Assembly (NCBI GenBank): GCA_014871385.1
Contig: CM026429.1
Coordinates: forward strand, 9,233,075-9,297,074
From: Ceratodon purpureus
Taxonomy: Eukaryota; Streptophyta; Bryopsida; Pseudoditrichales; Ditrichaceae
DNA length: 64,000 nucleotides
Direction: 5' to 3'
This document shows, in pieces, positions 17,246-62,400 of the stretch. Positions within the stretch are counted from its first letter, which is position 1. Each line of letters opens with the position of its first letter. Position numbers and translations under genes: made by a program. The notes under the pieces were generated by a model. The model was not told the DNA's origin. It saw only the letters and a program-made list of their open reading frames with translations, and did no database searches.

Positions 17246-17249
17246 TTAA

Positions 17250-18179
17250 CCCCTAAGTGCCCAAGCATGTTTTGGGTCTCAAAACCTCCAAAACAGTGAT
17301 TTTTGACAACCTTGTAGAAACGACAATTTGAACCAAACAAATTTACTTTTTTTAGACATCCAGCCGTAGGATCTTGTACTAAACCTTCTTTAGAAGTACT
17401 GATAAATTTTTCAGCCGTTGGATGTTTACCATCTTAGAGATTATAATATTCAAAGTTGCAGCAAAACTTTTTTTGGGCATTGGCTGAATGACATAGTCAA
17501 AATGGTGCAAAGGGGGAGTTGAAGATTGTTACCCCAAACATTTTGCCCATATTTTTTTCCATGTGGGTAATCAAGTTGAGTACCTCCATGGAAAATTTGA
17601 GAGACTCATTCCTTTTTTTGGCTCTCATAAAAATTGTTTTCTAGAAGCAGGTCTGAAAACGTTGATATAGTAAAACATGCATGACGTCACGTATATTTGG
17701 TTTTAGAGAAATCAAAACGGTAGTTAGGTGCCTTCATAAGTTTTTGATTTTTGAGCGAAATTATTTTTGAAAAATTTCAAAATCTCAAATTTTGACGAAT
17801 TTTGAAAGAAGTAATTCAAAAATTACTGAAAATATTGAAGCTTGTCTTTGTAATTTTTAGAGGCTGCCCTTGTAAAATTGGTTAACTTTTTGGCTTGGGT
17901 CACTTTGGATTTTGAGTAATGATTTGGTTATGAACATACTTTTAAAAAAATAATTGAAAAAAAGCTTAATTTTATGCTGCCCGTTTTGGACTTCAAACCA
18001 AAAATTTCTAGATTGAAGGTCTTAAAATTGGAATTTGGCTTTGCAAATTTTAACACATACACTTTGCAGTACAAGGAGCATCCAGTAAAAATCTTAGGCA
18101 AAAATAACAATTTTAACCCCTTTATCTAGACTGACCGAAACAGCAAAAAGCCATTTCGGCTTTCCTGGGCACTTAGGGG
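17250..18179 (+). mobile_element. Non-autonomous piggyBac-type element, 930 bp
   Basis: Flanked by TTAA at 17246-17249 and 18180-18183. Ends are a perfect 14-bp inverted repeat, CCCCTAAGTGCCCA and TGGGCACTTAGGGG (18166-18179). No transposase is encoded. Near the 5' end (17330-17465), in reverse orientation, is the internal module also found in the other elements (agccgtaggatcttgt and cagccgttggatg about 45 bp apart). This is the cleanest small copy in the window. Confidence 0.85.
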
Positions 18180-18183
18180 TTAA

Positions 18184-22560: not shown

Positions 22561-22564
22561 TTAA

Positions 22565-23487
22565 TCCTTAAATGATAATTGTCCTAAAATGGGCTTTTTA
22601 AAATTTTGGGCAAGTACATGTGATGTCAATTTTAGATATTTTCTTTTGAATTTTTGTGAAAGTAGGCCATAACAAGAACTTTGGAGGAATCTAATTTATT
22701 TTTCAATTAGATATTTTAAAAAATAGTTATGGTACCCAAAGTGAAATTTTGTATTTAGTGGGCAATTCAAGTAGCCATGCTAAATACATATATTACCTCT
22801 AAGATTATTTGTATAAATACTTGATGTTGTCGTCTTTGAAATTTCCCAAAAAAAATTCATTCAGTACAAAATGTTTATTCCACAAAATATCAAAGTTTTC
22901 TCATCGTTTCGGGCAGTTTATTAAAAAAACTTATTCTTTTTTTCATAAAAGTTTCAATTTATTTTTTATTTTTAGGTTTTTTATTTTTTCCACTCAGAGG
23001 ATGCACATTAATCTTTACTTTGAGCGTTTGGATTGGAATTTTATAAAATAATGGAATTTCTAGGAGACAATTACGAATTAGCATTCTTATGTACTCAACT
23101 TCATAAAAATATTGTTTTCAACATGCTACACTTGTATTTTGTGTGTAATTGGTTTCATACAACTAGCTATCTTAGTTGTCTTTGTCATGCACCAAAACCC
23201 CCTTAAATCCGTATTGTAAAAAATCTAAGAAAAAAAAAGTTATAGTGTGTCAACCTAGTCAAAAATTGTGTCAAAAAATTTTGTTTAGAAATTTCAATTG
23301 CTATAATCTTCTAATCTTTACAGTCAATTGTGTTGAAATTCTTTGAGCTATCTACTACAATAATCTTATTGAAGATCTTGCGGTTAGAATTAGAAAATAA
23401 TGATTTTTTAGTCATTTATGTTTTTTCCATTGTAAATAGGAGTCTTGGAGAGTTTTCTAGTGAAACATAGTCAAGGAACTTTAGGAG
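22565..23487 (+). mobile_element. Non-autonomous piggyBac-type element, degenerate, 923 bp
   Basis: Flanked by TTAA at 22561-22564 and 23488-23491. The ends are decayed versions of the family ends (TCCTTAAAT at the left, CTTTAGGAG at the right). The 5' block tcctaaaatgggctttttaaaattttgggca matches the starts of the elements at 309 and 44175. The 3' part (23290-23400, tgctataatcttctaatctt ... gaagatcttgcggttag) aligns with the 3' subterminal region of the autonomous element (51440-51530), so this copy is probably derived from that lineage. Confidence 0.7.
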
Positions 23488-24007
23488 TTAATAATGCTAC
23501 TTGTATTTAACACATATCTTCAAAGGTTTGGTCAAAGATATTTTAGATGAAATCTATTGATGAAGTTACAGTTTTTTTCTAACATTAGAGTTTCCGTAAA
23601 GTCACCTTGAGTTTTTAGAAGATACCATGAATTTGGCTTTATTGTATTACTATTGTTTACTCCAAATAGTTAAGAGATATCAAATGGAATGTGTCATTTC
23701 TAACCCTATTTCTACGAAGACTCTCTACCTCTCTTCAAATAGAATAACTCAAAGTAACTCCTTATCCGCACTCTAGACTTCCACTTTGAATCAAAACTCA
23801 TTGTATCTAAATCAAATACCAGGTACCTTCACAAATAACTATAGTTTTTACATTCAAATTAAAAATAAAATAAAATAAAAAAATAAAAAAAATACCACAA
23901 ACTAGCTAACAACCAACCAACCAATCAATCCACAAGTGTCAAAACCCACAGAATTATTCAAACATGCACTAGTGGAACTACTGTTGTTTTTCATTTACTA
24001 GTTTGAA

Positions 24008-33426: not shown

Positions 33427-36400
33427 ATGAAATCACGGCTTGGAGCTGAAGGTGATGAAGCTACACAACCTGTTCAGCCTGGATCTGCACAGGAAGGGCG
33501 AGGTATGTTAACATCTTTCTTTACTGTATATACGAATCTTACGGATTTTCTAATGGGCAATGATATTGGTTCTAGTGCGACATGTTTAAACATTGCTTGT
33601 TACAGCCTGGAACCTTCTAGTTGAAGCCTAAGTCTGATCAACTGATTAATTTTGGAGTGGTCGACTTGGAGAGCGGAAAGAATAAAAAAATCTCTCATAG
33701 TATGAGTACATGTTAGAAGTAGCGTCTAATCTTGCTGTGGAGACGTAGCAGGAGCGAGAACTAGAGACGGCAGACCACCATTACCAGCTGCAGTAGGGCA
33801 GACCAGGGACAGCATGACAGGAGCTAATGAGGATGAAACGGAAATCTCAGAGGTTGCGAAGGATCTTCTGAAACAACAAGTTCAGGCCCTATCAGCAAAA
33901 GTTGAAGAGGTGCTCTACTTTCTTAACATTCATTGCAAACACGTGCATATTCCTAATGTTCAGTATTTGGAGATCCACAACCAGCGTCAGATTCGCTGTT
34001 CAGTCTGAGCCTTATATTCTTTATGTACCTTGCTCTGGTTAGAGCCCAAATGCTTAGTTGTTACACACTTGGGTATAAATTACTTGGTTTAAAGGTGGCA
34101 CAAAAGCTTCGAATGTTCTTCATAACATCTCCCGTGTCTATGATGTTTGCCTTTGAGCCATATAACCAGTCTAAAAATTCTTCTGGGAAGTTTGCAGATG
34201 GAGAGAAAGGTTGCTGAGGTAACCCAAAAGAGGAATGCTGAACGCAAAAGCAAGGGGAAGTTGGGCACTGGTGTAAAAGACCGTGACAAAGGAGGTGGTG
34301 CTGTCAACAAAAAGCAGCAGCAATTACTGGATATAACCAAACGGGAGGCAGCTCGAAGCAAGCGCATGCAGGAACTAATGCGCCAAGTTCAAAACATCTG
34401 GAAACAGGTACAATTGACATGTTTACCGGAACTTACTCAGCCTTTTATTGTGCTTCAATCTTGAACTTTAAGGTTTTTAAAATTCTGCGTCATGTTTTTT
34501 TGTATTTGTTATTCGGTGCGTCCTCTTTCTCTTTGATCGTTGATGAAGCATCTGATCACTAACTCTGGATAGCTATGTTGACTACTTCGATTATCGTATT
34601 GCTGATGCATTGAATCGAACAAGCACCTGATCTTATCGTGACCTGGAACGAAAGTGCCATCCCCAACTTGAATACCTTATTGTGCTTTCGGATGAATTAC
34701 AATTTTTAGAACTGGTGTTGGAGATCCTGGAAAAGGCTACAAGTATGTTTAGAATTGAGTTTGCGATCGGTAAGACGGTGACTCTGAGTAATTTTGCAGA
34801 TTTCTCAGCATAAGTGGGCTTGGCCTTTCATGAAGCCTGTGGACGTTAAGGGCCTGGGTCTGCACGACTATAATGAGGTACGTGATATTAAATTATTCAA
34901 TATCCATATTCTCTTGTATATCCTAGACTGGAGCTCTCTTTCATCATCACTAGGTTATGATGGATTCAGAGCAGATAAGGCTCAGTTTCTCTACATAGAA
35001 TCGTTTCTCTTTCGGAATGTTAGTAGTATGAATTTGCACAGGACCAAGAATTGTGAAATAGATTACATGATATCCAGGAATATACATATCTAGATGAAGT
35101 ATGCCAAGTTAGCAATTCGGCATAATCAGCGGAAGCCACCCTAATTACAGTGACTTTTCAAATTTATATTTATCGAATGCATTCAATTTTTTATTTTGTT
35201 TTCTGAGGCTATGTTTTCTTGGAGTAGGTTATCGAAAAGCCAATGGACATGGGCACAATAAAAAACAGAATGGATGCAAAAGACGCTTCAGGGTACCAGC
35301 ATGTTCAGGAAGTCTGCGATGACATGCGCCTAGTTTTCTCCAATGCTATGACATATAATCCTGAGGGTTCTGACGTTTATGTGATGTCCAAAACCCTCTC
35401 CGATAAGTTTGAGGAGAAATGGAAGTCTCTCATTGAACCAAAATTGCACGAGGAGGTAAGCATATTCTCGGGGGTTCTTACTGATGATCTTCGTTATCTG
35501 ATCCTTCTATCATGAATGTATTCCTCCCAGCAACCTCAATCCTCAAGGAACTCAGTGCAAACCTTTATTGAATCATTCATTATAAATAATATTTTGTTGC
35601 ATATCTCTGCGTTCTGGTCTACTGGTATTACGCAGAACTCAACTGATATCAGTGATATTGATTCTCAATTCTTGATTGTTGACACTCCACTATATTCTAA
35701 GTCGGTGACAACATGCACGTTCCTGGACAGGAGTTGAGAAGATTGCAGGAAGAAAACGAAGTTCAGGTCAAAGAAGGAGTGCAGGCAGTGGAAGAGATAG
35801 ACGTAGAAAAGCTGACAGAGCAATATGCAGCTCAGGTAAGTTACGACTACAGTTTAGCTTTGGTACCATCCACTTGCGAGAGATTCTGGATGAATGTGAC
35901 AAAGAATATAAATTTAAACTTCATGCACACACATTGAATGCTGGTACTGGACTTGGTTGCATTCTCTTGAGTCTCAGAAAACCCCTCTGGGATATCTACG
36001 TGGCTAGAAATCTAGGATTCACCTCTGAAGTTAGGGCTGTCATCAGTGGAGCTACGAAGGACACTCTTCTATCATATAGCGTATTGACCGACACGTATTA
36101 GAGATGAATAGCAATGATATCATATTGTTTAATACGCACATCCATCAAAACTAATTTGTGAAGATCGCGAAGTCAGAAAATATAGGACATGCTTTTCTAT
36201 TTAAACGTAAATTTTAACTCATTAGGCGTGGAATTGTAGTTGGAGGAACTTGATAAGCAGCTAGAAGAGCTGAAGCAACAAGCAACTCCGAAGTTCAGGT
36301 TAGTATTATAGCTTTTGTCATCCATGTGACATTGCTGGTGGATATGAACTGCTAGTTGCACTTAGAGTTCTTTTGCTTTGGGGGATTGTTACGCGCATGT

Positions 36401-39199: not shown

Positions 39200-39955
39200 G
39201 ATGACACCAATCTAGACCACCAAATTGAAATGATAATGGAACAAAAGTCTCCCGAGAGCAACAAAGATTGCTACAACAAACAAGTAATCAAGACTCTCAA
39301 CACTACAAGGTCTTAGCAAGAATAAGGTACAAGCTGCAAGCCACATTCTTTCCTTGTATTGACTACATTGATGCAACAACATTACCAATATTGTTCACTA
39401 TAGTTGTTTCCGTAAAGGCCGAATAAGCGGAGATGTGTTGCCTAGCCAGTAAGTTTCAAAAATACTGTACACATTTTTAATTATGCAGCATGTGAGGAAA
39501 ATTGCCTCATTCTATAGGCGACTGCAAAATGTGTGTTATCCGGTTTCTGTGTGTTCGGTTTTGGAGGTTGGAGCCTAGGGCCAACCTTTCAGAAATTCTG
39601 GGGCGCTCTCGCGAGCACCGCAGGGGGGTTGGAAATAGTTTTCAACCAGCAATTGACGCGTCTCGGTAAAACCTCACTAACTGCGTCATTGCCCCAAGCG
39701 CAAAGATACCGTGACCTCCGCTCCGGAATCACCATATGCTTGGAGAAAGCTGGAATGCCAACAACCGATATCGGATATATCATGCCCAGAGCTGAACCGG
39801 TGACCGACATGCGCTATGAATTCGCAGCTGGAATACTGCACCCATGAAGAGCAGTACTTTGGGGTTGATCGGTTTAACTATTAACCGATCTTTCAAATTA
39901 ATTAGTGACGGCCATTCTCACATATGTATGTCCTTGTAACGTACCCCGACACGTA
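39200..39955. other. Intergenic DNA with a GC-richer patch
   Basis: No gene is recognised. At 39590-39840 the GC content is higher and both strands have open frames of 70-100 codons, but neither has a family signature. It could be an old transposon fragment. Confidence 0.4.
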
Positions 39956-40340
39956 CCCTGCATCGTCCAGGTAGTATGATCCAGCTATCTAGTTCATCGC
40001 TTGAGAATGAATGCGAGGGCCATGAACGTCGACGATGAGTTTTCGTGTGTGTGTCTGGCTGAACGCGCTAGCTGGGCAGAGTTGCGTGACAGAGATGACC
40101 ATGTTGTCGCCTTGCGAAGAGGGAGACAATGAGGAGACATTGAGCAGCTAATTCATGTGCACAGAAGCTGAAAGCACATTGAGACATTGAGAAGAAGTGC
40201 ATGTCTGTGTGACAAATCACCACAGCTTTGATGATTTCATTGTGAGAAGAGTGATCGCTAGGCGTTCCCTCTGCCGTTCCTCAGGGTGTTTTTCCCCTGA
40301 GGCTTGTTTCTTGGTTGACTTTTTAATCACCCCAAAAAGG

Positions 40341-40422
40341 GAGCTTGAGGCCGAGTGGTTAAGGCGGCAGACTCGAGATCTGCGCAGGTTTCCCTGCGCA
40401 GGTTCAAATCCTGCAGTTGACG
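40341..40422 (+). tRNA. tRNA-Ser(CGA), acceptor stem damaged (probable pseudogene)
   Basis: The D arm (GCCGAGTGGTTAAGGC), anticodon arm with loop CTCGAGA (anticodon CGA), long variable stem (GCAGG-TTT-CCTGC) and T arm (GCAGG-TTCAAAT-CCTGC) are all well formed and typical of tRNA-Ser. The 3' acceptor half is AGTTGAC plus G, but the upstream GAGCTTG pairs with it at only one or two positions. The first seven or so bases therefore seem replaced. It lies in the loop of the large inverted repeat. Confidence 0.7.
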
Positions 40423-43534: not shown

Positions 43535-44174
43535 CAGTTTCGCATTTGTGTGTAGGTTTATCAACACGGTCACGTCAGCATTGCAGAATTTTGCTTCATC
43601 CTCGGGCTGAAAAAACTATCTACCAAAAACACAACACAGCCTACACAAAGGCAGCTAGCCTAGACGATGTCCACGACCCAAAACGCTCTGATGGAATACG
43701 CAGATTGAGCAAAGATGGCCCAAGCAAATGGTAGACTTGAGGTGAAGGTCATGTTGTGGGTTCTTTAAGGGGAAGAATTAGGGTTAGGGTTTTCGGCAGT
43801 TGGGTGAACTGCAAGCAAAGCCAACGAGTGTGAGGATGGGGACCCAAAGGCGTTATAGCCCTAATGGCGAGATGGTCTATAACATGCGTAGATTTTTGTG
43901 TGCGTGATTGTTGGTTTTGGGTTTGATGATGGTTTTGGGGAGTGCGGTCAGCTTGGTTGTTTTGTTTCTGGATGTGTTGGGAGATTGAAAAGCCGCTACG
44001 GGTGCGTATTTAAAACCGTCATTGTACATAAAACCAGCATTCTACTCTGAGGGTGGCGGCCAGAGATAACTTCTAATATTATTAGATGATAATACCACAA
44101 GTTTTTTTCTCTTAATTTTTTTTTTATAAATACTTTTTTTTTTCAACAACACCCAATAACAAGTAATAGTGACT
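43535..44174. other. Upstream region of the Vma12-like gene
   Basis: This is the promoter side of the minus-strand gene. The first 80 bases (43537-43610) resemble 42958-43040 inside intron 2, so part of the 5' flank has been duplicated into the intron or the reverse. The remainder is low-complexity and AT-rich near 44.1 kb. No other gene is seen. Confidence 0.5.
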
Positions 44175-44699
44175 CCCCTAATCGGCCAAAGTCCTAGAAT
44201 GGGCGTTTTTGAATATTGGGCAGGTTCCTAAGGAGTGAATTTTAATTGAAATTTTTTGAAATTTTTTGTGGGAATAAAACTTTTAGAGAGCTTTTTGGAG
44301 AATTTTTTTTTTTTTTTTTTGATGTTCGACGTAAAAGTTATGGTTGACTGAGTGCAAAACGCTGCTCCCAGGGAAAGGCGGGTAGGGCAATCCTCCAATG
44401 AGATTGAAGGAGCTTCTTTGACTTTTCAATGGGGTCAGGGTTTATGGAGGGGTTTGTAGAGGGAATATTGAAGGGCCAAGAATGTGGGCTAGGGAAAGGA
44501 GGAAGGGCCCGGTTCATTGGGTAAAGGGCAACAGGGCCGGTTCAGTGGGCGGGGCGAACAAGGCGGGGTCAACATCGCGGGTCGAGGTCAACAGAGTCGG
44601 TGGGGGAGCAAGGGGGGTGGGGAGCAAGGGTGGGGGCTGTCTCGGGGGAGTCGGGGAGCAGGGGCGGGGACGGGGGCTGCATTGAAGGGACTGGGGCGG

Positions 44700-44795
44700 G
44701 GAGCTGCCTGTGAACAGTGCCGTGTGCACTGATCACTGTCCACTGCGCACAGTGAACAGTGCGCAGTGCACACTGCACTGTTCACAGGCAGCTCC
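44700..44795. repeat. GC-rich hairpin, about 96 bp, in the piggyBac 5' region
   Basis: A perfect 21-bp inverted repeat (44700-44720 with 44775-44795; ggagctgcctgtgaacagtg and its complement) encloses further pairing (gtgtgcact at 44722-44730 with agtgcacac at 44765-44773) and a loop rich in short cagtg/cactg words. It sits at the end of a G-rich tract on the plus strand (44480-44700). Confidence 0.8.
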
Positions 44796-45145
44796 TCCAA
44801 ATCACAGTAAATCACATAACGAGATGAAGAAATCACAGGAGGACAGCGTTTCGGAGTGCGTCACTCCGAGTGCACATAGCCCTGTCCACTGACAGAATCA
44901 AAATCTGAGAAGTCACTGGTCATGTGGGAGAAGGGGATGAAAACGAAAATTCATGCCGGCTTCAATGAAATATACAGTTCGAAATTGTGACTGTAACCGT
45001 TCTTTTGAGGGAAAATTCAGGAAAATAAATTAATTAATTAATTAAATTAAATTTTATAAAAAAAATATATATTTCACATAAGAAATATCTAAGCAATACT
45101 AGGCTTTTCAAACCCATGGAGCGGAGCCAGAAGGCTTTGAATAAG

Positions 45146-45475
45146 AGCAATGGGTCCAGTAGGACCCGTTGCCTGTTAAGTAATTTTAGGGTTCACATAA
45201 AACAACAATAGGTGGATAGCAAGGGTTGATTTCATTGAATTTTGGGTTTTATAGCCTTATTTTATCATGCAAATAATGTTAAAAATAAATAAATCTCAAA
45301 CTTATATAAAAGCAACGGGTCCGGTAGGACCCGTTGCTCGTTAAGTAATTTTAGGGTTCACTCAAAACAACGATAGCGGGATAGCTAGGGTTGATCTCAT
45401 TGAATTTTGGGTTTTATAGCCCCTATTTTATCATCCAAATAATATTAAAAATATGTAAAACTCAAAATGATCAAA
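45146..45475. repeat. Tandem duplication, 2 x 165 bp, with palindrome
   Basis: Units begin at 45146 and 45311. Each starts with a near-perfect palindrome (gcaacgggtcc-ggta-ggacccgttgc in unit 2) and continues with about 130 bp of similar AT-rich sequence. It lies inside the piggyBac element just before the nested copy. Confidence 0.8.
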
Positions 45476-45527
45476 ATCAAAGAATAAGGATGCAAAAAGC
45501 CATTTACAAAAAATCATTTATCATTAA

Positions 45528-46603
45528 CCCCTAAAGCATTTGGCCATAAAATCCCAAATTCCGCCTCAAATCTGCCCTGTTTTAGTTCAAGGTAGAATTA
45601 TGAAAATTTAAACGTAATTAGAAGAATCGAACCGTAAGAACTAGTACCTAACTTGTACATGTATGTGTACACAAAATTTTAGACTGTAGCTCCTCACCGA
45701 TTGGAAGATCATAAGGTTTGAACTTGAGTGAAAAGTTTTTTTTGGTCCTGCCCGGCAGGGACAGCCACACTTTGGAGAGTAAAACAGCCAAATTTTTGAG
45801 ATCTTGTGGTTGGAGGCTCTTCAGTTTTGGATTCTAAATTGAGTTGGGAGTATGCTCAAAAAGATTGAAAAGAATACAACACAGAGAAGCATTGAAAAAC
45901 CACATTTCTAGTGATGGGAGTCAAATGAAATGCAAATACACTGGCTCTTTTTCCACACTACAAATGCCTAAGAAGATCATCTATTTTTTGAAATCCGAAC
46001 GGTGTATACGTGCATTTCTATGGAAAAGAAATTGTGGAGGAAAAAAATCTAAAAAATAAACAAATCCGAAATAGATATGAATTTTATAGTGGTTTAGGAG
46101 GAGATAATGGTGAAGGAAAAATGGGTGATGAAGGTGACCCAATCACTGTAGATCTGTTTGACAGTTTTTATAAAACTTGGAACTTTGACTGAATATATCT
46201 CAAGATCCGTACGGTCAAAATTAACAAAATTTGGAAAGCACACTAATTTGATGGCTCTGAAAAAAATCCAACGGTTGGATTTTTCAAAATCAAGTTTTAA
46301 AAAAAATTGTAAAACGATTTCAGAAAGGATCATTTGGAAGTCACTGTAGATTGTCATAGATTTGGTACACCACTTGCATCGGCCACAAACCTGCCCGAGC
46401 TGCCCTGAATTGAATTTTGATCTTTAAACACGATTTATTTCTTAACTATGGGCCCGGTGAAAGTGAAATTTGGTCTTGTTAGAAAGATATAACAATTTCC
46501 CATGTTGTGCCAAAGTTTCAGCCACATCCGGTAAAATTTGACTCATAGGGAGCCTGACCGGACCCTAAATCATACCAAAACTGTTGAGTTGATGCTTTAG
46601 GGG
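45528..46603 (+). mobile_element. Nested non-autonomous piggyBac-type element, 1076 bp
   Basis: Flanked by TTAA on both sides (45524-45527 and 46604-46607) with a perfect 12-bp inverted repeat CCCCTAAAGCAT / ATGCTTTAGGGG. No protein is encoded. It carries the shared internal module twice in opposite orientations, near the left end (45620-45730, with aaccgtaagaac and gattggaagatcata) and near the right end (46190-46280, with agatccgtacggtc and aatccaacggttggat). It must be younger than the arrival of the host element. Confidence 0.85.
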
Positions 46604-47348
46604 TTAAGTAATCACTTGACCCAATCAATCAAATTAATTTTTCATTTTTAGAAAATCACGAATGTAATAGTTAAATTTCTAAACGTAAATTTGTAAATAT
46701 TTTCATTATAAAATTGATCATTAAATTATTTTATTAAAATATTCAGTATATAAAAATAAAAAATAAAAAAATAAAAAAGTAGTGAGTTCTATGGTTCTAG
46801 CTTTACTGTGGCAGTTGGGATCAAATTTTCATCTCTGACGCAGTTTTCGTCACTGCAAATCTGTTAAATGCAGGAACCAGGTGGCCTAAATTCTGGCTGA
46901 TAAGGCCTACACATGGACCCACGCACCCTAAGCGACGCACTCCGAAAAGACAGCCTCAAATCACAGTAAACAAATCACAGAACTAAATGAACAAATCACA
47001 ATAAACAAAGCACAGTTCTGAGACCAATGAACAAGTCACAGAGAATCAGCAACTCACACAGTGAACAAATCACACAAACTGTAAATCACCATAAGGGAAA
47101 ATAACAAATTACAGAATCAACTTGGGATGAAACACCTTGATGAAGTGTAACTTAGAGAAATTCATGTGCAAACTTTGCATAGTATTCCATAAAGACCTAT
47201 TCTTGTTGCAACCATGTCAAAGCCATAATTCAACTTTCCACCAAGTAGATGTGAGTAAGATACCAAACAACAATGTCATGAATCTAAATATGAAATCAAA
47301 AATAACACCTACCACTTCAAACATGGACTTTCTCAACATATACATGTG

Positions 47349-47355
47349 TATATAA
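47349..47355 (+). promoter_or_regulatory. Probable TATA box of the piggyBac transposase gene
   Basis: TATATAA lies 78 bp upstream of the proposed ATG (47433). This would place the transcription start around 47380 with a 5' leader of about 50 bases. Confidence 0.45.
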
Positions 47356-47432
47356 CTTGGGCTCAAAGAAGTCCATTGCAACATTGATAGTGCAACATAG
47401 CCATAAGCTTCTCCAATTACAACTATAGTGAG

Positions 47433-50400
47433 ATGCCTAGAAGGAGATCATGGAGGGGGAAAGAGGTAAGTCAAGCATTTCCATTTTCTACTTACAAATT
47501 GAAAGTTCTCTACTAACTTCAAATTTGTACTTACTAACACATGTTCTTCTTGAGTTTTGTAGGAGAGCTTCTTGGAGGCTCCAAGAAGGAGCTCAAGGTT
47601 GCAATCTCACCAAGCATCTACAAGTTCGAATCTCCTTCTACCCTCCTCACCTTCACATCTACCTCCACACCCTTCTCCAACTCCACCTCCAAAACCTCCC
47701 TCACCTCCTCTTCCACAATCTGCAAATGTAGGAGAAGACTTACATGCATTGTTAGAAGCAAGAATTGCACAAACTAACCCTGCTTTTTAAGATTCCCAAG
47801 ATCTTTTTGAGAATGAGGGGAGGGAGAGCTCTTGTGAAATTTACAGTGAAGATAGCTTTCATGAGGGAGATTATGCCTATGAGGAGGAGAGGACCTTGGA
47901 GGACTTATGGTGGCCTGAAGAATCTAGTTATGACATCCACAAATTCAATGCAAACACTCACAAGAGAAAGAAGAAAAAAAATAGAGAAGGGCTCCTCCCC
48001 GTCGAAGCTCTGGGCGCTGCTATTGAACTGCTTGCGGGAGGAGAAGAGCGGGGAGATACAAGGCCAACGGCTCCTTCGACCTTGCTGGAGGATGGCGGGC
48101 AGGGACAGCGGGGAGCCCGCGAGCAGGGCGGGACTCTGAGCCCGGGAGAGGGCGGGGACGTCGGAGAGTGGGTTCAAGGCCGCGGGTTTGGGGGGGGCAT
48201 GCAGTGGGGAGGAGGCCACGAGGGCGAAGGGCGGCCCGATGGCCACGAGGGAGGGGGCTTTGGCGAGCTGGATGGCCGCGGGGAGGGCGGGGAGCGGAGT
48301 GGCTGTCAGGGGGTTGGCGGGGAGTGCCAGGGAGGATGGAGCGAGGAGGGAGGGGACAGGGAGCGAGGGAACGGGGAGGGAGGGAATTGGGAGCGAGGGA
48401 ACGAGGAGGGAGGGGACTGGGAGCGAGGGAACGGGGAGGGCGGGAGTTGGGAGCGAGGAAACGGGGAGGGAGGGGTTAGGGAGCGAGGGAACAGGGAGAG
48501 AGCGAGTTCGGATAGAGGGAACGGGGAGGGAGGGAGTTGGGAGCGAGGGGTCGAGGAGGGGGGGAGCGTTTGGGGAGCGGAGGGAGCTCAGACTGCAGAG
48601 GGAGTTCAGGCTGGGGAGGAAGTTCGGGCTGGGGAGAGAGTTCAGTCTGAGGGATTTGTTATGGACAGTGGAGGGGAGAATGTGGGTGGGGGTTTGTTTC
48701 AAAGGCATATGGGTGGAGAGAATGGAGTGACTCCGAGGAGAAGGCAAAGGGACAATGTTTTTTTGCCACCAACATTAGAGAGTGATAGTGATGATTTTGA
48801 GAGCGATGGATATTTGAGTGGAGAAGATGACGAAGGGGAAGATTTGGGAGATTGCAATAGCACAAAGTATTTGTTCCGGGATGCAACGTGGAAAAAGACC
48901 CATTACACTTATGATCCAAAGCCTCAAGATTTTGATGGTACTTCGGCCTCAAATATTTTTTGGAGGTGCTTTCCTACCATGTTACAATTGTTTGAGATAT
49001 TTTGGACACGTAATATTGTACGGAACATTGTTAGAGAAACGAATCGGTATGCAACGGCCGTGGGTACGGATGGAAATACTATGGATGGTGCGGGATGGGT
49101 GGAATTTACGGAGGCCGAGTTCAAGGCGTTTATGGCAATATGGTTATACATGGGTATGAAGCGTCAACCAAATTATGAGTCTTATTGGCAATATCGTGGA
49201 TCAATTTATCATTGTTGTATTATTTCGAGAATTATGACCCGTACTCGTTTCAAGATTTTGAACAAGTGTTTACATATCACTAATCCGGCTAATTATGTTC
49301 GTGAGAAGGAATTGCCGGGTTATGATAAGTTGGGCCAAACTAGATGGTTGATAGAGAGCATTCGTGACAATTGCAAGAAGGTTTGGATTTTAGGGGAATA
49401 TTGTACCATCGATGAGATGATGATACGATATAAAGGATCGTATTGTCCTTTGAGACAATATATGCCTCAAAAACCACAAAAGTGGGGCATAAAAGTATGG
49501 TGTTTAGCGTGTTCCAAAGTAAAATATGTTTGGAATTTTGAGATTTATTGTGGTAAAACCCAAGTTGTAGAAGAGGAGCGACGGATTGTTAGGGAGGAAC
49601 CAAAATTAGCGCACAATGTTGTTGTGAATTTGACAAATGACATTGTGGATAAAGGGCATGTCATTGTTATGGACAACTTTTTCACAAGCGTTGGACTTTT
49701 TAGAGAATTATTATCAAGGTCGATTTATGCAACCGGGACAATGCGCTCGAATCGGATTGGTGTGCCTAAAGTGTTGAGAAATACAAAGGCATATAAAGGA
49801 GAAGAACAAGGGTGGATGGATTGGAGAATGCACGAATCAAGGTCTATGGCTTCCGTGGTATGGAAAGACAAGAAACCGGTTTTACTTTTATCTACTCATG
49901 CACAACCAACTATTACTCCCGGATTACATGTTCCAACGGTACCACGTCAAAATGGAGCTATTCGAGAGGATATTCCAACATCGCCTATGCATTTGGAGTA
50001 TACAACTCATATGCGGGGAGTTGATGTCGCCGACCAACTCCGAGCATCTTATTGCACTCAAAATCGATCCCATAAATGGTGGCATCGTGTCTTCTTTTTT
50101 TTACTTGATATGACCGTGGTGAATATGTTTCTAATTTATGTTGACAAATGCAATAACTCTTTGCCGGTTCGCAAACCTATGCCTCATCTCCAATTTCGGA
50201 CAAAGCTATGTGAGGCATTATTGCAAAATTGGAGAGTACAAGAAGAAGACGACTTTGTATCTCCAACACAAGGTCGCCGATATTGCTATCCCATTTATTC
50301 CAAGAGAAGAAATCCTTGTGTGGTATGCAATAGGTCAAAGCACAAGAATGGGAAAAGACCACATTTTTATTGTCCTTCATGTGAGAACAAGTTCATGTGC

Positions 50401-50566
50401 TTCAAGGGAGAAAACTCATGCTTCCAAAAATATCATGATGGTCTTTGCCGACAACGCCCTCATAATGTAAGTTCTATGGAAATTCATGTATTTGTTGGAT
50501 TTATTTCGTTCATTTTTTTGAAATTATTGTTGTTAGGTTTATGAAATTTTTACAATGTCTAAATGA
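47433..50566 (+). CDS. piggyBac-family transposase (DDE_Tnp_1_7), spliced, one in-frame stop near the N terminus
   Basis: Proposed exons: 47433-47465 (MPRRRSWRGKE), 47563-50466, 50537-50566; introns of 97 and 70 bp with GTAAGT donors. The frame is open except for one TAA at 47788-47790 (codon 87); without it the protein would be about 988 aa, against roughly 600 in insect piggyBac. Counting residues from position 47896, catalytic aspartates are Asp506 (TIDEMM, codon 49411), Asp593 (VIVMDNFFTSV, codon 49672) and Asp710/Asp713 (GVDVADQ, codons 50023/50032). The C terminus has a Cys/His cross-brace (CVVCNRSKH, CPSCENKFMC, CFQKYHDGLC) like the piggyBac end-binding ring. An insertion-like Gly/Glu/Arg-rich repeat (48358-48568) extends the N-terminal region. 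The family excises and inserts at TTAA. An internal ATG at 48661 would spare the whole catalytic core, so the stop need not abolish activity. Retaining the last intron ends the protein at 50544 instead. Confidence 0.85.
48358..48568. repeat. In-frame 30-bp minisatellite in the transposase
   Basis: About seven copies of a 30-bp unit (core gggagcgagggaacggggag) encode a 10-residue repeat such as GGSWERGNGE. The tract is strongly G-rich on the coding strand and keeps several frames open on both strands, which explains long shadow frames here. The encoded segment should be disordered and mixed-charge. Confidence 0.85.
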
Positions 50567-50739
50567 ATCTTCCCAAATAATAAAGAATTTGGAAATAATT
50601 ACAGTCATTTAAAAATTAATTAAATTTAAATAAACTAAAATATTTTTAAAAATAAAATTAAAAAAGCTTGTGGAAAAAAAACAGTGACAGAATGTGGATT
50701 GTTTTGATGAAATACTGATAAGGGGAAGTTTGGATACAC

Positions 50740-51010
50740 AGGCAAGGGGGGGGAGGGGAGGCGTTTAACTTGCGGGCCCAGGCACCTGAAAGGGGACACT
50801 GCGGGAGGGAGAGAGCGGGGAGCTAGGGGGCGGGGATGGAGGGGAGGCTGCGGGGAGAGGGCGGGGGTCGAGGCTGCGTGGAGAGGGCGGGGGTCGGGGC
50901 TACAGGAAGAGGGCGGGGGTCGCAAAGGGGACGGGTACAGAGTGGATGGGGTAGGGGAGTATGTGAAGGGAGGGGGAGGATCATGATTGTACAGTGGGTG
51001 GGTTCCGGTG
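50740..51010. repeat. G-rich degenerate repeat in the piggyBac 3' region
   Basis: Plus-strand G-rich DNA with repeated gagggcgggggtcg words at a spacing of roughly 30 bp. It resembles in composition the G-rich tracts at 44480-44700 and 48000-48660 of the same element. G-quadruplex formation is possible. Confidence 0.6.
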
Positions 51011-51629
51011 GAGACGCCTGGGACTTGGCCTCCCAGGCCTCCATCTCCTGCCCACATCAAATTTCACTTTGATCAACAATCCCTCCTTTGAAATTCAAGT
51101 TTTTTTAATTTTTTTTTTTAGAAAAAATAACTTCACATAAAGAGTAGTGTGTTCACCGTATGGATTGTGGAATTTCAGAAATCTATGAGAGCTATAATTA
51201 TTTTCTCTTTGAACATGCAAATGTAAACCGTGACTCCTACTTTTTTTGCAAAGTGATTTTGTACATGTTACATTCATTTTCTAGTCCTCATTTTTTTCAT
51301 ACATGTACCTAACAGGGTTATCTTCCCATATTTCCCGAACTGCCAACTTTTGTAGTGGAGAATTTTGATCTACAAGTGGTCAAACGTTGCTAATTGTCTT
51401 GGGCAATACAAAAAAAAAGTTTTTACTTTAGTTCAAATGCTATAATCTTTTCATCTATGCGGTCGAATATGCCAAAAAAAAATTTGGAAGTTAACAAAGC
51501 AGTCTTATTTGAGATCCTACGGTTGAAAGTTGGAAATCACCATTTCTTTTTCACAATTATCTCTTGCGATAGAAATGGCAAATTTTGACAGTTTTTGGAG
51601 AATTCAAGTCTTGGCCGATTAGGGGTTAA

Positions 51630-53969
51630 TAGAGAGTCCAACAAGCTCTTTCATTTTGAGTAAGGAAATAAAAAACAGAACCCATGGTGCACTATTGAGT
51701 TCTACTATTGAGTTCTTATGTAGATTTTAGAATAATGAAGATAATCTTACTTAGGAAGAATAGATTGATGACGTGGCTAACTTTTATAACCGTAAAAGGG
51801 CTAGCGCATATATTCCTTAAATTATTGCAATTTAATAACATTTAATTGTGTATAGACTATTCTTTAATTATAATGCAACCTAAAAATATTGTAATTAGGT
51901 TGCCAAAATACAAATACCTATTGGATGTTTATTGCTAGAAAGTAAATATGTGATTAGTCTAAGTATGTCTCTTGTAATAGAAGTTTAAATCTAATTAATA
52001 ACACAATACGTCTATGTTGGTCTTTGTTTGTATAACTATTTTAGATTTTATTCTTTGTTTGTATAATTATTCCCACATCTACCTTATCTAAGTTATTTGT
52101 TTTTACATCTCATTCTCTAATAAGCACAAGTACCAGTATCAAGTACAAGTCTATCTTTGCATTCTTTCTAACTTACAATTTTGAAATTCTATTTCTTTCA
52201 TACCCTTATCTATAGAAACATGGGTATCAAAAATATAATACCATGTTAGTGATACCTTAATGGTTATATTTTAAAATAGCATGTATATTAAAAGAAAAAT
52301 CTACTTACCACTTGTTTAGAGCATGAGAATATATCCATGCCTCAAAAGAGGGACTCAAAATATTGATTCTACGTCATGTATCTTTTCTTGGAACTTCTAT
52401 AGACTTAAAATAATCTTCAAGAAGCCGTAATTATGAAATATTTTGAAGGTTGTAACTAACTTAAATTAGAGAGCCATTGAAAATTGGCTTTCCATGGAGT
52501 CCTAAGGCATTCAACTCTGAACAAACCACTATCATGCCACACACAAGCTAAAACAAGCATTATAATAACTAGTAGGCAGAGACCGATCTTCCTCGAAACA
52601 ATGCTTAAAACTTGCAAGATATGTGATGATGAACAAAAGTAAAAAAAAATGCTAAAGATCAAAGCATGTACCATTTGTTGATAACAGGTTCGTTCAGTCT
52701 TGAAAAAAAATTTAGTACATTTGGAAAATTAAGGTTTTTTTCCAAAAGTTTTGTTTTTTTAAATCACTAAAAATAGCCTTAGATGGATTAAAAAACGGCA
52801 AATATTACATAAATCAATTTCTTGTATTTTCGTTTTTCCATCCTCAAACTTTACAGTTCCTTTTGTTTTCTTTTTTATAATCAAATATTTGTCAATGCAA
52901 AAAATTAGAGCTGCCTCGCTTACTCTTACTCGAACCACAGCCGAGCAAATTACTTCTGTGCTGGAATCCTAGATTTCCTGACACCCCGATCAAGTGCATC
53001 GACGTGTGACAACAGTTATCCAACCTAATTGCCTCAATGCACCATGCCACAAGCTGAAAATATAAGGAAAATAGCTCTAACTTACCAATTCAAAACCACC
53101 AAGAACTGGAGAAGTGAGGAGGTGGGCTGTCGACCACACTCTCATGATCAATGTAGCGGAGTATTGTGTGTTTACATTTAGCTACCATGGAAAGATTGCG
53201 TGAAGCACAAGCCCTATATCGTAAGATTACGTAAACTTAAGTTTTGTTAGACAGTAGTGAATTGCAATTTGCAATTTTAGGAATTTGCCCAATGAACATT
53301 GAGGTGAACGTCATTTACCAAAGTGCTGAGATTTCTCCCACCTTTTCAAGCACTGCATCATGGGATATCATATATCCATTCGAGGACCGAAGGCGTTCCC
53401 GGCACAATTCCTAATTGCACGCCCAAAGAGGCCCTACTTGCAATTCACGCAGATGTTTGAACATTTTGTAGATGTGCAGTTTCATGCTTGATGCCACATG
53501 CAAACCTTGCACTATTTTCTATTCTACTAAAAAAGACACAGAAAATCACTCCAACAGGCAAGTGTGCAAATTAAAACCCAAGAATCACTTCAAAGAGCTC
53601 TCATTGAATGCTCATCTTATATATTGACAACTTGCACAAATATGCAGTCCTGTGGCTCCGGAGATGCGTCAAAATCTGTGGGTGAACATAGCTGATCCTC
53701 AAATCCTATTTAGAGGTTTGGCTACCTCAAGCTCTATATGGTAGAAGTTTCAAGGAGATACTACACAGCAGGAAAGGCCTGAATACTCCATGAGAGGGCA
53801 TGTTCCTGGAGCATTTATTGAAGCTTTGAAATAAAGAAGTTTCAAAGGGATGCAAATCATATCGTTCTATGCTCAAATATGATAGGCTGGTGGAATCTGC
53901 ATCCATACTGTATGTACACAAGAGTCGGATAAAAGGCACGCCATCTAGAAGAACCGTTCTTAAGTATTT
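51630..53969. other. Intergenic DNA between the piggyBac element and the PFA-DSP-like gene
   Basis: AT-rich, with no recognisable gene. The part from about 53.5 kb up to 53969 probably includes the 3' UTR of the minus-strand gene. Confidence 0.5.
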
Positions 53970-57394: not shown

Positions 57395-58820
57395 TAAAAT
57401 CCCTGTTCGGGTTAAAGCGAGAAAGAGAACACAACCGGGGAAAACACCCGGGGACGCCCAGAGGGCCGTCGCGCCGCCCGAGGGGAGCATCAGCCAGAGC
57501 CGGAAGCGACAAGGCACGCCTAGCTGTCACTAAGCTACAAAGTCAAAGCAGACTAAGAAGATCCAAAAAAGGATCCAGCAATACTACGAAGTCAGAGCAG
57601 ACCTCGCTGACCCAAAGGGTCGGAGCGGAGAAACGACACAGTCAAAGCAGACCGCTGAACCTCATGAAGAGGGAGCACACCAGAAACAACGACCAAAGCG
57701 GGCCGTGATCCTCAGAAAAGAGGAAGCTAACAACCTAAGCTGTCAACTAAAAAACCAGGCTAACTATCTAAGCAGAAAGCTATCATGTGAACTACGATCC
57801 TAACCAAAACGAGGCTTGGCTTGCGAGATCAGTCGCAGACCGCAGGTCCCCGGGGAGGCTGAGAGCGTCTTCGGGGTCATCATCATCTTCGTCATCCGAG
57901 GCATCCTAAGAGGAGAGCTCGGCTTGCATTCGAGTGATAATATCCGTGAGGATAGCATCAGTATGGAATTCTGCTCGTTCCTCAATAGAAGGGTTCCATC
58001 CAGGAAAAGCAAATTCTTGATTAGAGATTTCAGGAGCTTGAAACTCATGGAATCTGTTAGCGAACTCTCTTGTGAGAAATTCGGGGTGTGGAACTGGTTT
58101 CCATGTGGGAGAGGAGGTTCCTGCGCAGAACAACTCCCCTTGTGTCCATATCGAAAGGAAAAGCTGCACCATAGCGGCATGCTTCTCCGGAGACCTCTTC
58201 TTCTTGTAACATAAAAGCTCCTTCCAAGCAGCCATACTCGTTTGTACTGTAATCTTCCAAGTCTTGTAAAGTGCCACCCCTATGTGGAAGTGGCCATCAC
58301 GAAGGTCGTGCTCCACTTTCTGGCACCAAATTTGGTACAGCAAGATACTGCGGATAATGTCCCAGGGAGTTCTCTTCGCAATCTTACAGGTGGTCCTACT
58401 CGCATCCCATAAGGCATTAGGTTCCGGCTGGCGGCCCCTGCTGGTGTTTGGAGGATCCATATCGCCGTGTAAGACACTCTCCCAGTGTCTGAGACTGGGG
58501 TCTAGGCCAGCCAAGGATCGCAGGTGTCGAAGGCGTTCCCATGCGGGAAACGCCGCATGGCATCTAAACAATGCATGCTCTGATGTCTCGAGGGTATCTC
58601 CTGAGCATAAGTTGCAGACATCGGAATGTCCGATTTTCCTACGCCATGCACCAATCGGTAAACCGTCTGCAACAGTTAGCCACTGATGCCACATGCGTGA
58701 AAAATACGCCTTCCGATGGGCAAGAGGGTAGCCTCTCCGTTCCATCTCCTTGTCCCACTGAAGCTGGCGGGATCTCTGTCGAGTGATAATTCTGTATCCT
58801 CACTTAGTCGCTTAGTCCTA
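57395..58820 (-). mobile_element. 5'-truncated LINE inserted in a tRNA-Glu gene
   Basis: The minus-strand frame open from about 58790 to 57906 encodes at least 279 aa of the C-terminal end of a LINE ORF2-type protein, with a zinc-knuckle reverse-transcriptase tail (CNLCSGDTLETSEHALFRCH at about 32-60 of that frame, then a Trp-rich helical region). The reverse-transcriptase core is absent, so the copy is 5' truncated. About 500 bp of 3' UTR follow, with a roughly 50-bp repeated unit (agtcaaagcagac at 57541, 57590, 57640). The insert ends with ...GGGATTTTA rather than a long poly(A). It is bounded by the perfect duplication CACCTAGACT (57385-57394 and 58821-58830). Confidence 0.88.
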
Positions 58821-59472: not shown

Positions 59473-62400
59473 TCAAGGTCCATTGTCTGCTTTCAGAACC
59501 TTTGTCAGATCAGGAACCCACAATGACAATGCAACTGATGCAGTGGCAAACATGAGCCGGCGAGGTGCCCACTTCACACATGCAGGCACCCCTGCATTGT
59601 TCGTCCAGCATCCAACCTGCCAGGTCATGACACAATACAACTCTAAATTCAGCAATTATTTCTCTGGTGACTAACTGAGATTCTGTTTCAACGTGGTACT
59701 TTCAGAAATTTAAGAATCATGATGTCCTAGAGTATGTCGAAAACACTATGAACCATCAGGCAGAGAACATTGTTTGCGGAAGGGCCAACATTTACGAGAC
59801 TCTGCATCCCAACTTGACTCAAACTCTAGAGATGGTGGATGCTGCAGATCCAGAAAGTACAGTTTTTAAAAAGATTTGTACCTCAGCACCCGATGACGTA
59901 CTCCATGCTCGTAAAGTGCCATCACCTGACCCTGCAGAATCCAGTTCTTCGATTACAACCAGGACATCGAGATTCATCATCACTAGCACAAGGACGGCAC
60001 TTGAGCAATCCAGTCCTTCATCAGTATGGACGTCAACATGTCAAGGTAGAAATGGAAGGGCTCCAACCTGGCAATCACAACTCCATGCCTCGATTGAAAA
60101 GCTAGCCTATATCAGAACCACACAATGGAGATGTATCCCCTTTCTAGCAAATCGCCCAACCAAACGTCAAGACAACATTTGAGTAAGAGCTGCAATACCA
60201 CATTTCTAGGTTAGAGTGTAGACGTACCCGCAATTACAAACTGTGCATCTGGACTGAAGGAAGCCTCCAGTACCCCGCCATCAGGATTAGGTTCCAAAGT
60301 GAAGTCGTGGAGCTGTCATTATGCACACACACCGTACATGGTAAGCCACATATGATGCAGGACGCAACTCCATTTAATACACAGACCCAATATCAGAGTG
60401 CATACCTTCCGCCCAGCGTAAGCATCTAAAACATAGACATGGCCATTGGATGTTGACAATAGCATAAGCTTGCCGTCGTGGCTGAATTTCATACCAGACA
60501 CTTCAGCCGTATCATCCCCTACTAAGAATGTATCAAAAGGTCCCTGTTTCAGAAAATCATGGACTCATTAGGCATCCTTTTACTTGTGTAGGTAACATCA
60601 AGATGCAAAAGCAACCAGGGCTCAGAACAAGGACAAGGGCTAAGAAATGTAGAACAGTTGCGCTAAATGGATGTAAATTATAAATTGAACAAGGACCAAT
60701 TACAAACATCAAATGAGCTGCCAACCTTGTCATAAGAGCGTACATCAAAGAGCTTAATAGCTCCACCTTCCATAGCCACAGAAAATACAAGACCTTGTTG
60801 ATCATATGCAACAGCAGGCCTGCCCCTAATACGCAACAGTCCCTGAAGCAATAATTATGCGATTAGTGTACCAAATGACTTCAGTAACAACAGCTACAAG
60901 TGAAACTCCAAAGTTAGAAAAGATTACACTTTTCCAAGTTCATCCAAAACCCTAGGCTGGCACAAAGGCTACTCAAATCCTTACAATCACCTGAATCCCC
61001 GAGAGCTAGAATGCATTATCTAGCACTGTCCATTGCAAACAAATTGCTGAAATGCTACAGTAGTTAAAATTTGCGGTAGTTAGTTTCGTGAAAACTTAGC
61101 CTAGGAGCTCGTGACAATGAACTATGTCCATATGGAAACCCTAACATCCAGGGGGGCACAGAAGTGTGACCAAAAATACGAGTATAGTAGCAATAATCTA
61201 GCTATTGACAAAAAAGAAGTTGTGCATAAGATGAAGTGAAGGGGAGGCATCCCATACCTGACACACATTGGTGCGTAAATCCCAGAGACGTACAGTATGG
61301 TCCAGCGCACCAGACATGAAGCAGTCATTCTTGGGTGACATACATAGTGACACCACCCTGCACTGCATCACATCTTTTCTAAGTCTATGCATATGAGCAA
61401 TGGAAAAAGCCAGAATGACAACCATACCTGTCCAGATTTCTATGCAGTCACGAACAAAGCTGACTGAAAAACTTGAAACAAAAGACGGCTAGTGTTGACG
61501 CAAATGCAATGAAGAAAAGATACACCTCATAAACTCAAGAAGCACTATGACAACACCAGATTAAGATAGGGACCTGTCACGATGACCCTTGAAGTAGCGC
61601 AAATACCGATTATCGTACAAAGATAGGTACCGCAAGGACTCTGCAAATCCCCAACGCACAAAATCAGTGACATCCCAACAGACTTTCTCGGGGGTTATTA
61701 GCTGCGTATAAAATCAACACTTAACCCAACACACATGAGAGGGTACAAGATGGCCTTACCATCCCATCCGTTCTTAGAAGAGTAAACGACTGAGCTGGTA
61801 TGGTGAGTGAAGCAAATTTGGTCTACCCCATACTTCTTGCTGTGTATTGTTTTCAGCAACCTGCTCTAATAACAGGCATAAGCAGACAGGTGTTGAGAAT
61901 TTCACCCAAAAAAACTGGCGGTATTTTCTAGCAATAAACACAAGAGTAGCATGCAATCCCTAGCTAGAGTGCAACCATATCTAAGTGATCCGAAAGTGAC
62001 CGCAAGCCGCAGGTGATATATATTACCATAAGAAACATAGAACAAGCCCATTGTCTCCTAACCAGCTGTAGGAGTGTGACTTACGTGGCATTAGCGGTAT
62101 CATAAAGACGTATAGACTCATCGTCGGAAGCAGTGACAAGAAGGTCATCGGTTCGATGAAAATCAAGTGAATTAACCTTCCCTCCCTGAAAAAACAAATC
62201 ACAATAAACTAAATACACTGAACGATCTTATCAAACAATTTTCTCAAACATTTGCAACCAGCTCTCTTATTCTCAAATTTCAATTCTATTTGAACAATTC
62301 TCTTAAATCAATAATGAGCTCTTCAAATCCAAAAAAGAACTTCAAGCGATCAGAATGCATGTTAGTTCCACATGACCATTTGCAAACAACATGCAGGCAA

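Follow-up and report, generated by a model that had tools for sequence, protein, structure and literature searches.

The window analyzed here, the whole stretch of 64,000 nucleotides of DNA, contains a piggyBac-like element at 44175–51625 (+), which measures 7451 bp from end to end and 5352 bp once a probable nested insertion is removed. A predicted transposase gene lies between its terminal inverted repeats, and smaller elements flanked by TTAA are found in the same window. Among the host genes, a prolyl-oligopeptidase gene was located at about 9.9–13.2 kb of the window. Its predicted exons, joined by hand from their translations, give a protein that shares 99% identity with KC19_8G101600 of Ceratodon purpureus from end to end; the second listed match, another Ceratodon protein, has 84% identity. 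On the basis of this one host gene compared by identity, the DNA almost certainly belongs to the moss Ceratodon purpureus, in agreement with the original prediction that contamination of the contig was unlikely, and the locus tag suggests a location on chromosome 8. A bromodomain exon (35228–35512, +, 51.4 bits) was detected on one side of the element and a WD40-like exon (61201–61488, −, 25.1 bits, slightly below the cut-off of 27) on the other. The window also contains a U4 spliceosomal RNA gene (39567–39707, −, 107.2 bits) with a tRNA-Ser (cga) close to it at 40339–40422, as well as an open reading frame of 297 aa (57909–58799, −) that matches zf-RVT weakly (22.2 bits against a cut-off of 27.5), perhaps a LINE-type remnant.

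The left terminal inverted repeat of the element, CCCCTAATCGGCCAA at 44175–44189 (+), is preceded by GACT without TTAA. The right one, at 51611–51625 (−), is a perfect match to it and is followed by TTAA at 51626–51629. When the window was searched with CCCCTAATCGGCCAA, only these two sites matched with 0 mismatches, and 4 sites were obtained at up to 3 mismatches compared with 1.10 expected by chance, the other two having 3. Both the perfect 15-bp inverted ends and the right-hand TTAA announced by the original prediction were thus recovered. The repeats start with CCC, as described for piggyBac inverted repeats in the passages of PMC10813416. TTAA on both sides, a further feature of the superfamily, was not found for the transposase copy, with TTAA on the right and GACT on the left. 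The bases at 44164–44176 (TAATAGTGACTCC, two of them within the element) and at 51627–51639 (TAATAGAGAGTCC) agree at 11 of 13 positions; at least 11 agreements were reached by 39 of 20,000 random window pairs, for a comparison that was picked post hoc. The offset of this likeness does not fit a TTAA duplication, and with the left TTAA absent it does no more than hint at a repair event.

The transposase gene was modeled with a first exon at 47433–47465 (+), which begins with ATG and was deduced from the reading frame and GT–AG sites only, and a second exon at 47563–50466 (+), which matches PF13843 and is open except for one TAA. The predicted GT–AG intron between them (47466–47562) joins the upstream ATG exon to the frame of the open reading frame. 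A GTAAGT donor-like site follows at 50467, and both features fit the spliced transposase that had been proposed. The exons joined from 47433 to 50466 comprise 979 codons, with the TAA at 47788–47790 as the single stop.

The open reading frame at 47791–50544 matched Pfam DDE_Tnp_1_7 (PF13843), the check named beforehand, with 268.4 bits and an E-value of 1.4e-79 (cut-off 22.4 bits). Among solved transposases, piggyBat (E 1.8e-26) and piggyBac (E 7.5e-26) were the only two distinct sequences matched at E ≤ 0.01. Together with the moss host gene, these matches bear out the claim of a piggyBac-type transposase in a land plant. The aspartates that we take to be catalytic in a piggyBac-type transposase fall within 49411–50034 (+) by alignment to piggyBat and piggyBac. 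Their codons are at 49411–49413 (TIDEMM), 49672–49674 (MDNFFTS) and 50023–50025 (GVDVAD), with an extra Asp at 50032, and all three align with Asp residues of both solved proteins, as expected from the claim that the catalytic residues were in place. In an 18-row alignment of relatives, D202 is invariant and D289 is present in at least 90% of the rows, while the Asp of the GVD/GID motif, counted by eye, occurs in 15 of the 15 rows reaching that place. The C-terminal Cys/His motif can be seen by eye, as originally noted, but its zf-Tnp_2 match (17.1 bits, E 0.0085) is below the Pfam cut-off of 24 and only suggestive.

Five structural models of the transposase were predicted, with mean pLDDT from 53.1 to 76.0, the best one (76.0) having a pTM of 0.72. 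When the predicted fold was compared with the PDB, chains of piggyBat and piggyBac took the first three places (E 2.0e-23 to 3.2e-22), with TM-scores by query length of 0.59–0.61 and loose superpositions (rmsd 8–14 Å), and the next fold match was Tn5 with an E-value of 1.4e-4. The sequence matches and the predicted fold support the assignment of the transposase itself to the piggyBac superfamily. Tandem repeat analysis also identified a 15/30-bp repeat at 48330–48566 (+) that encodes a low-complexity stretch of the transposase. Over 48330–48654, inside the open transposase frame, 15/30-bp and 18-bp tandem repeats are both present.

The open reading frame of the original prediction begins directly after the in-frame TAA at 47788–47790 (+), and the frame extends upstream, in the predicted N-terminal region, to the ATG at 47433, which is joined on by predicted splicing. 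Residues 1–180 of the joined frame, with X at the stop, were compared with residues 1–200 of 144 relatives using a threshold of z 6 against shuffles. Four of the 144 (P0012, P0014, P0019 and P0256) aligned across the TAA, with z values of 15.6, 9.8, 14.6 and 8.6, and read through it with L, R, V and I, respectively. The other 140 remained below z 6 at the N-terminus, perhaps in many cases owing to incomplete sequences. The likeness to the four relatives is strongest downstream of the stop, and upstream it consists mainly of a few residues around NPAF. Since four relatives read through that position, the TAA is read as a nonsense mutation of the present copy within a gene model that is itself a prediction, and full-length transposase is probably no longer made from this copy.

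The frame remaining open after the TAA is 2754 bases long and includes the whole DDE core, with in-frame ATG codons at 48199, 48661 and 48709. A start at any of these could retain the whole catalytic core, and the copy need not be dead. A functional copy that still transposes, with translation begun from one of the later ATG codons or with the TAA being an error of sequencing or assembly, would account for the long open frame and its ATG codons. Nevertheless, four relatives keep a similar N-terminal sequence across the stop, the left end is without TTAA, and the 5′ region carries a probable nested insertion, and this explanation is considered unlikely. With a decayed copy as the preferred reading, the intact ends and core that had been proposed stand in part: the core is open and the 15-bp ends are perfect, whereas the predicted gene has a nonsense codon and the left end lacks TTAA.

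The probable nested insertion (44849–46947, about 2.1 kb) is delimited in the 5′ part of the element by inverted 25-bp stretches at 44849–44873 and 46923–46947, which are 84% complementary, with GACAGC on both sides. Located within it is a non-autonomous element at 45524–46607, with 1076 bp between its TTAA sites and inverted ends CCCCTAAAGCAT, its TTAACCCCTAAAGCAT ends being perfect. At 45141–45480, also in the probable nested insertion, two tandem copies 165 bp apart are 86% identical over 176 columns. Because of this insertion within an insertion and the stop codon, the copy appears to be old rather than young. No support was found for the suggestion that it was possibly young, and the elements sharing its ends have ends only 62–66% identical to it.

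To the left of the nested insertion, a foldback with 46-nt arms, 91% complementary, was found within the element at 44700–44795. As RNA (44690–44805), it has a predicted folding energy of −86 kcal/mol with a z of −12.1, and none of 200 shuffles folded equally well. This foldback could be a source of small RNAs against the element. Its assignment as MIR1858 (Rfam RF04119) was set aside, with 48.6 bits against a gathering score of 137. A Rfam match on the element to the Brucella sRNA BSR0626, below its cut-off, was also set aside.

The preservation of a catalytic core in an otherwise decayed copy would also be seen in a domesticated, PGBD-like host gene derived from piggyBac whose transposon ends had been kept by chance. 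This explanation is at odds with the perfect 15-bp ends on both sides, with the nonsense codon, and with the many similar sequences found elsewhere (201 at E ≤ 1e-20), and it is regarded as extremely improbable. A decayed transposon remains the reading followed below.

Small elements with TTAA were then considered across the same 64 kb. The end sequence TTAACCCCTAA was found at up to 1 mismatch at 12 sites of the window compared with 1.36 expected, a number reached in 0 of 100 shuffles. For 4 of the 5 left-type sites a right-type site lies 200–2000 bp away, with a maximum of 2 in 100 shuffles. The four paired left-type sites are those at 172 (doubtful), 305, 17246 and 45524; the site at 22561, whose end has two mismatches, was excluded from this count. 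Four elements in the window are firm, free of transposase and flanked by TTAA on both sides. Besides the nested one at 45524–46607, they lie at 305–1173 (861 bp between the TTAA sites), 17246–18183 (930 bp, a second end type with inverted ends CCCCTAAGTGCCCA) and 22561–23491 (923 bp).

Three of the four firm small elements (305, 22561 and 45524) resemble the transposase element beyond the inverted repeat. For 305–1173, the left end has 65% identity over 194 bp with the left end of the transposase-bearing copy. Both ends of 22561–23491 resemble those of that copy, with 66% identity over 170 bp to its left end and 63% over 201 bp to its right end. For 45524–46607, the left end matches the right end of the transposase-bearing copy with 62% identity over 120 bp. 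All 3 elements with ends common to the transposase element have TTAA on both sides. In the end comparison with the transposase element, no end match was found for 17246–18183. From the end similarity, we infer that the three end-sharing elements were moved by transposases of the present lineage. Since their ends are only 62–66% identical to the transposase element, the lineage would have had a long stay in the genome.

A further candidate at 172–1604 was dropped from the firm list despite TTAA on both sides, with a left end of about the 305 type and a right end of about the 17246–18183 type. It surrounds 305–1173, with 93% identity between the initial 57 bp counted from 172 and from 305; its right end also gave a weak match to 22561 (63% over 112 bp), which was left unused. 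A search of the window for further transposase remnants yielded 145 tblastn matches from the 144 relatives, 0 of them outside 47300–50700.

Among the 120 matches listed out of 201 at E ≤ 1e-20, the closest relatives of the transposase were P0247 (ENA), 89% identical over 57% of the core, and P0001 (JGI), 79% identical over all of the core, on contigs of 2,253 and 3,523 bases, respectively. None of the 120 came with an ncbi, uniref or nr source. A quick tree was built from 52 rows, the window and 51 of the 144 relatives (P0041 and 92 others were omitted), with midpoint rooting and no bootstraps; three long end branches were flagged. The window groups with P0247 (SH-aLRT 99) and P0001 (95), within a clade of 31 rows (SH-aLRT 100) that excludes the Mytilus row, the sole named animal row. 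The Mytilus protein was also the only named one among the 41 relatives of one protein search. In scans for related loci, 29 pattern-matched stretches in viral contigs from one scan gave 0 confirmed by tblastn, with none from further viral scans, and 24 pattern-matched stretches in genome contigs likewise gave 0 confirmed by tblastn.

A recent horizontal transfer, with an animal, alga or fungus as the donor, would be compatible with nearest relatives that have no organism names. The only named animal row falls in another group of the tree, however, and the divergence of the elements that share these ends within the window points to a long stay, and we find such a transfer very unlikely. With host names missing, the tree as such neither shows nor excludes horizontal transfer. 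The preferred reading, a resident but decayed transposon, is followed from here on.

The element is very probably a decayed, formerly self-mobile piggyBac-type cut-and-paste DNA transposon in the nuclear genome of Ceratodon purpureus. Transposons of the piggyBac type, best known from insects, excise seamlessly and move by cut-and-paste at TTAA; piggyBac is widely used as a tool for gene transfer, and most studies of it concern animals. By analogy with these systems, the transposase, with an RNase H-like DDD core, would recognize the CCCC... ends, excise the element at TTAA and reinsert it at another TTAA. The present copy would later have gained the nonsense codon near the predicted N-terminus of its transposase, its left TTAA may have been lost or never present, and the copy appears to have been interrupted by other elements. 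The lineage, through putative intact copies, is the likely source of mobility, in trans, for the end-sharing TTAA elements of the window.

The nearby elements with matching ends suggest that a piggyBac-type transposon has long been at home in Ceratodon purpureus. A broader proposal is offered only tentatively and seems rather doubtful at present: mosses might hold an old, diverse and vertically kept piggyBac lineage with its own transposase clade, which would have scattered very many TTAA-flanked miniatures over the Ceratodon genome and be a main DNA-transposon force in mosses, largely overlooked by repeat annotation. If true, such a plant lineage, with transposases and miniature elements of its own, would offer a system adapted to plants for study and inform on how the superfamily is distributed among the eukaryotes.

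PiggyBac elements have already been reported in land plants, and the moss element is one more member of a kind already known. Table 2 of PMC4438587 includes PiggyBac among the DNA transposon superfamilies of all studied groups, land plants included. For the C-fern genome, passages of PMC6890710 give 1,230 PiggyBac elements covering 122,417 bp, and those of the MITE review PMC10004981 name PiggyBac as one of seven angiosperm MITE superfamilies. The feather-grass genome is credited with one PiggyBac of 75 bp in the passages of PMC8319324. In contrast to the three first-named sources, a review of land-plant transposons recognizes six TIR superfamilies in plants, and the word piggyBac is absent from its text as indexed (PMC9033089). 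The rarity in land plants originally supposed is therefore in keeping with this review and partly contradicted by PMC4438587, PMC6890710 and PMC10004981, as far as their passages go. For the moss Pohlia nutans, 23.68% DNA transposons are given, with no superfamily breakdown in the passages of PMC9247546. No published description of a piggyBac element from a moss was found among the papers listed by searches of an open-licence library, where the one match for Ceratodon was due to the word 'piggybacking'.

Compared with these known cases, the moss element shares the superfamily name with those of the C-fern, the angiosperm MITEs and PMC4438587, whose passages consist of lists or annotation counts and describe neither a transposase nor the structure of an element. 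P0247 and P0001, known from proteins on the contigs given above, are like the moss element in core sequence and tree grouping. The solved piggyBac and piggyBat systems (6x67, 9c0f) have in common with the moss transposase a DDE_Tnp_1_7-type core, aligned catalytic Asp residues and, as predicted, the fold, at 21–23% identity in the structural alignment. Unlike these two systems, the moss element has a long N-terminal region of low complexity that includes a 15-bp tandem repeat, predicted introns, a nonsense codon and the terminal inverted repeat CCCCTAATCGGCCAA.
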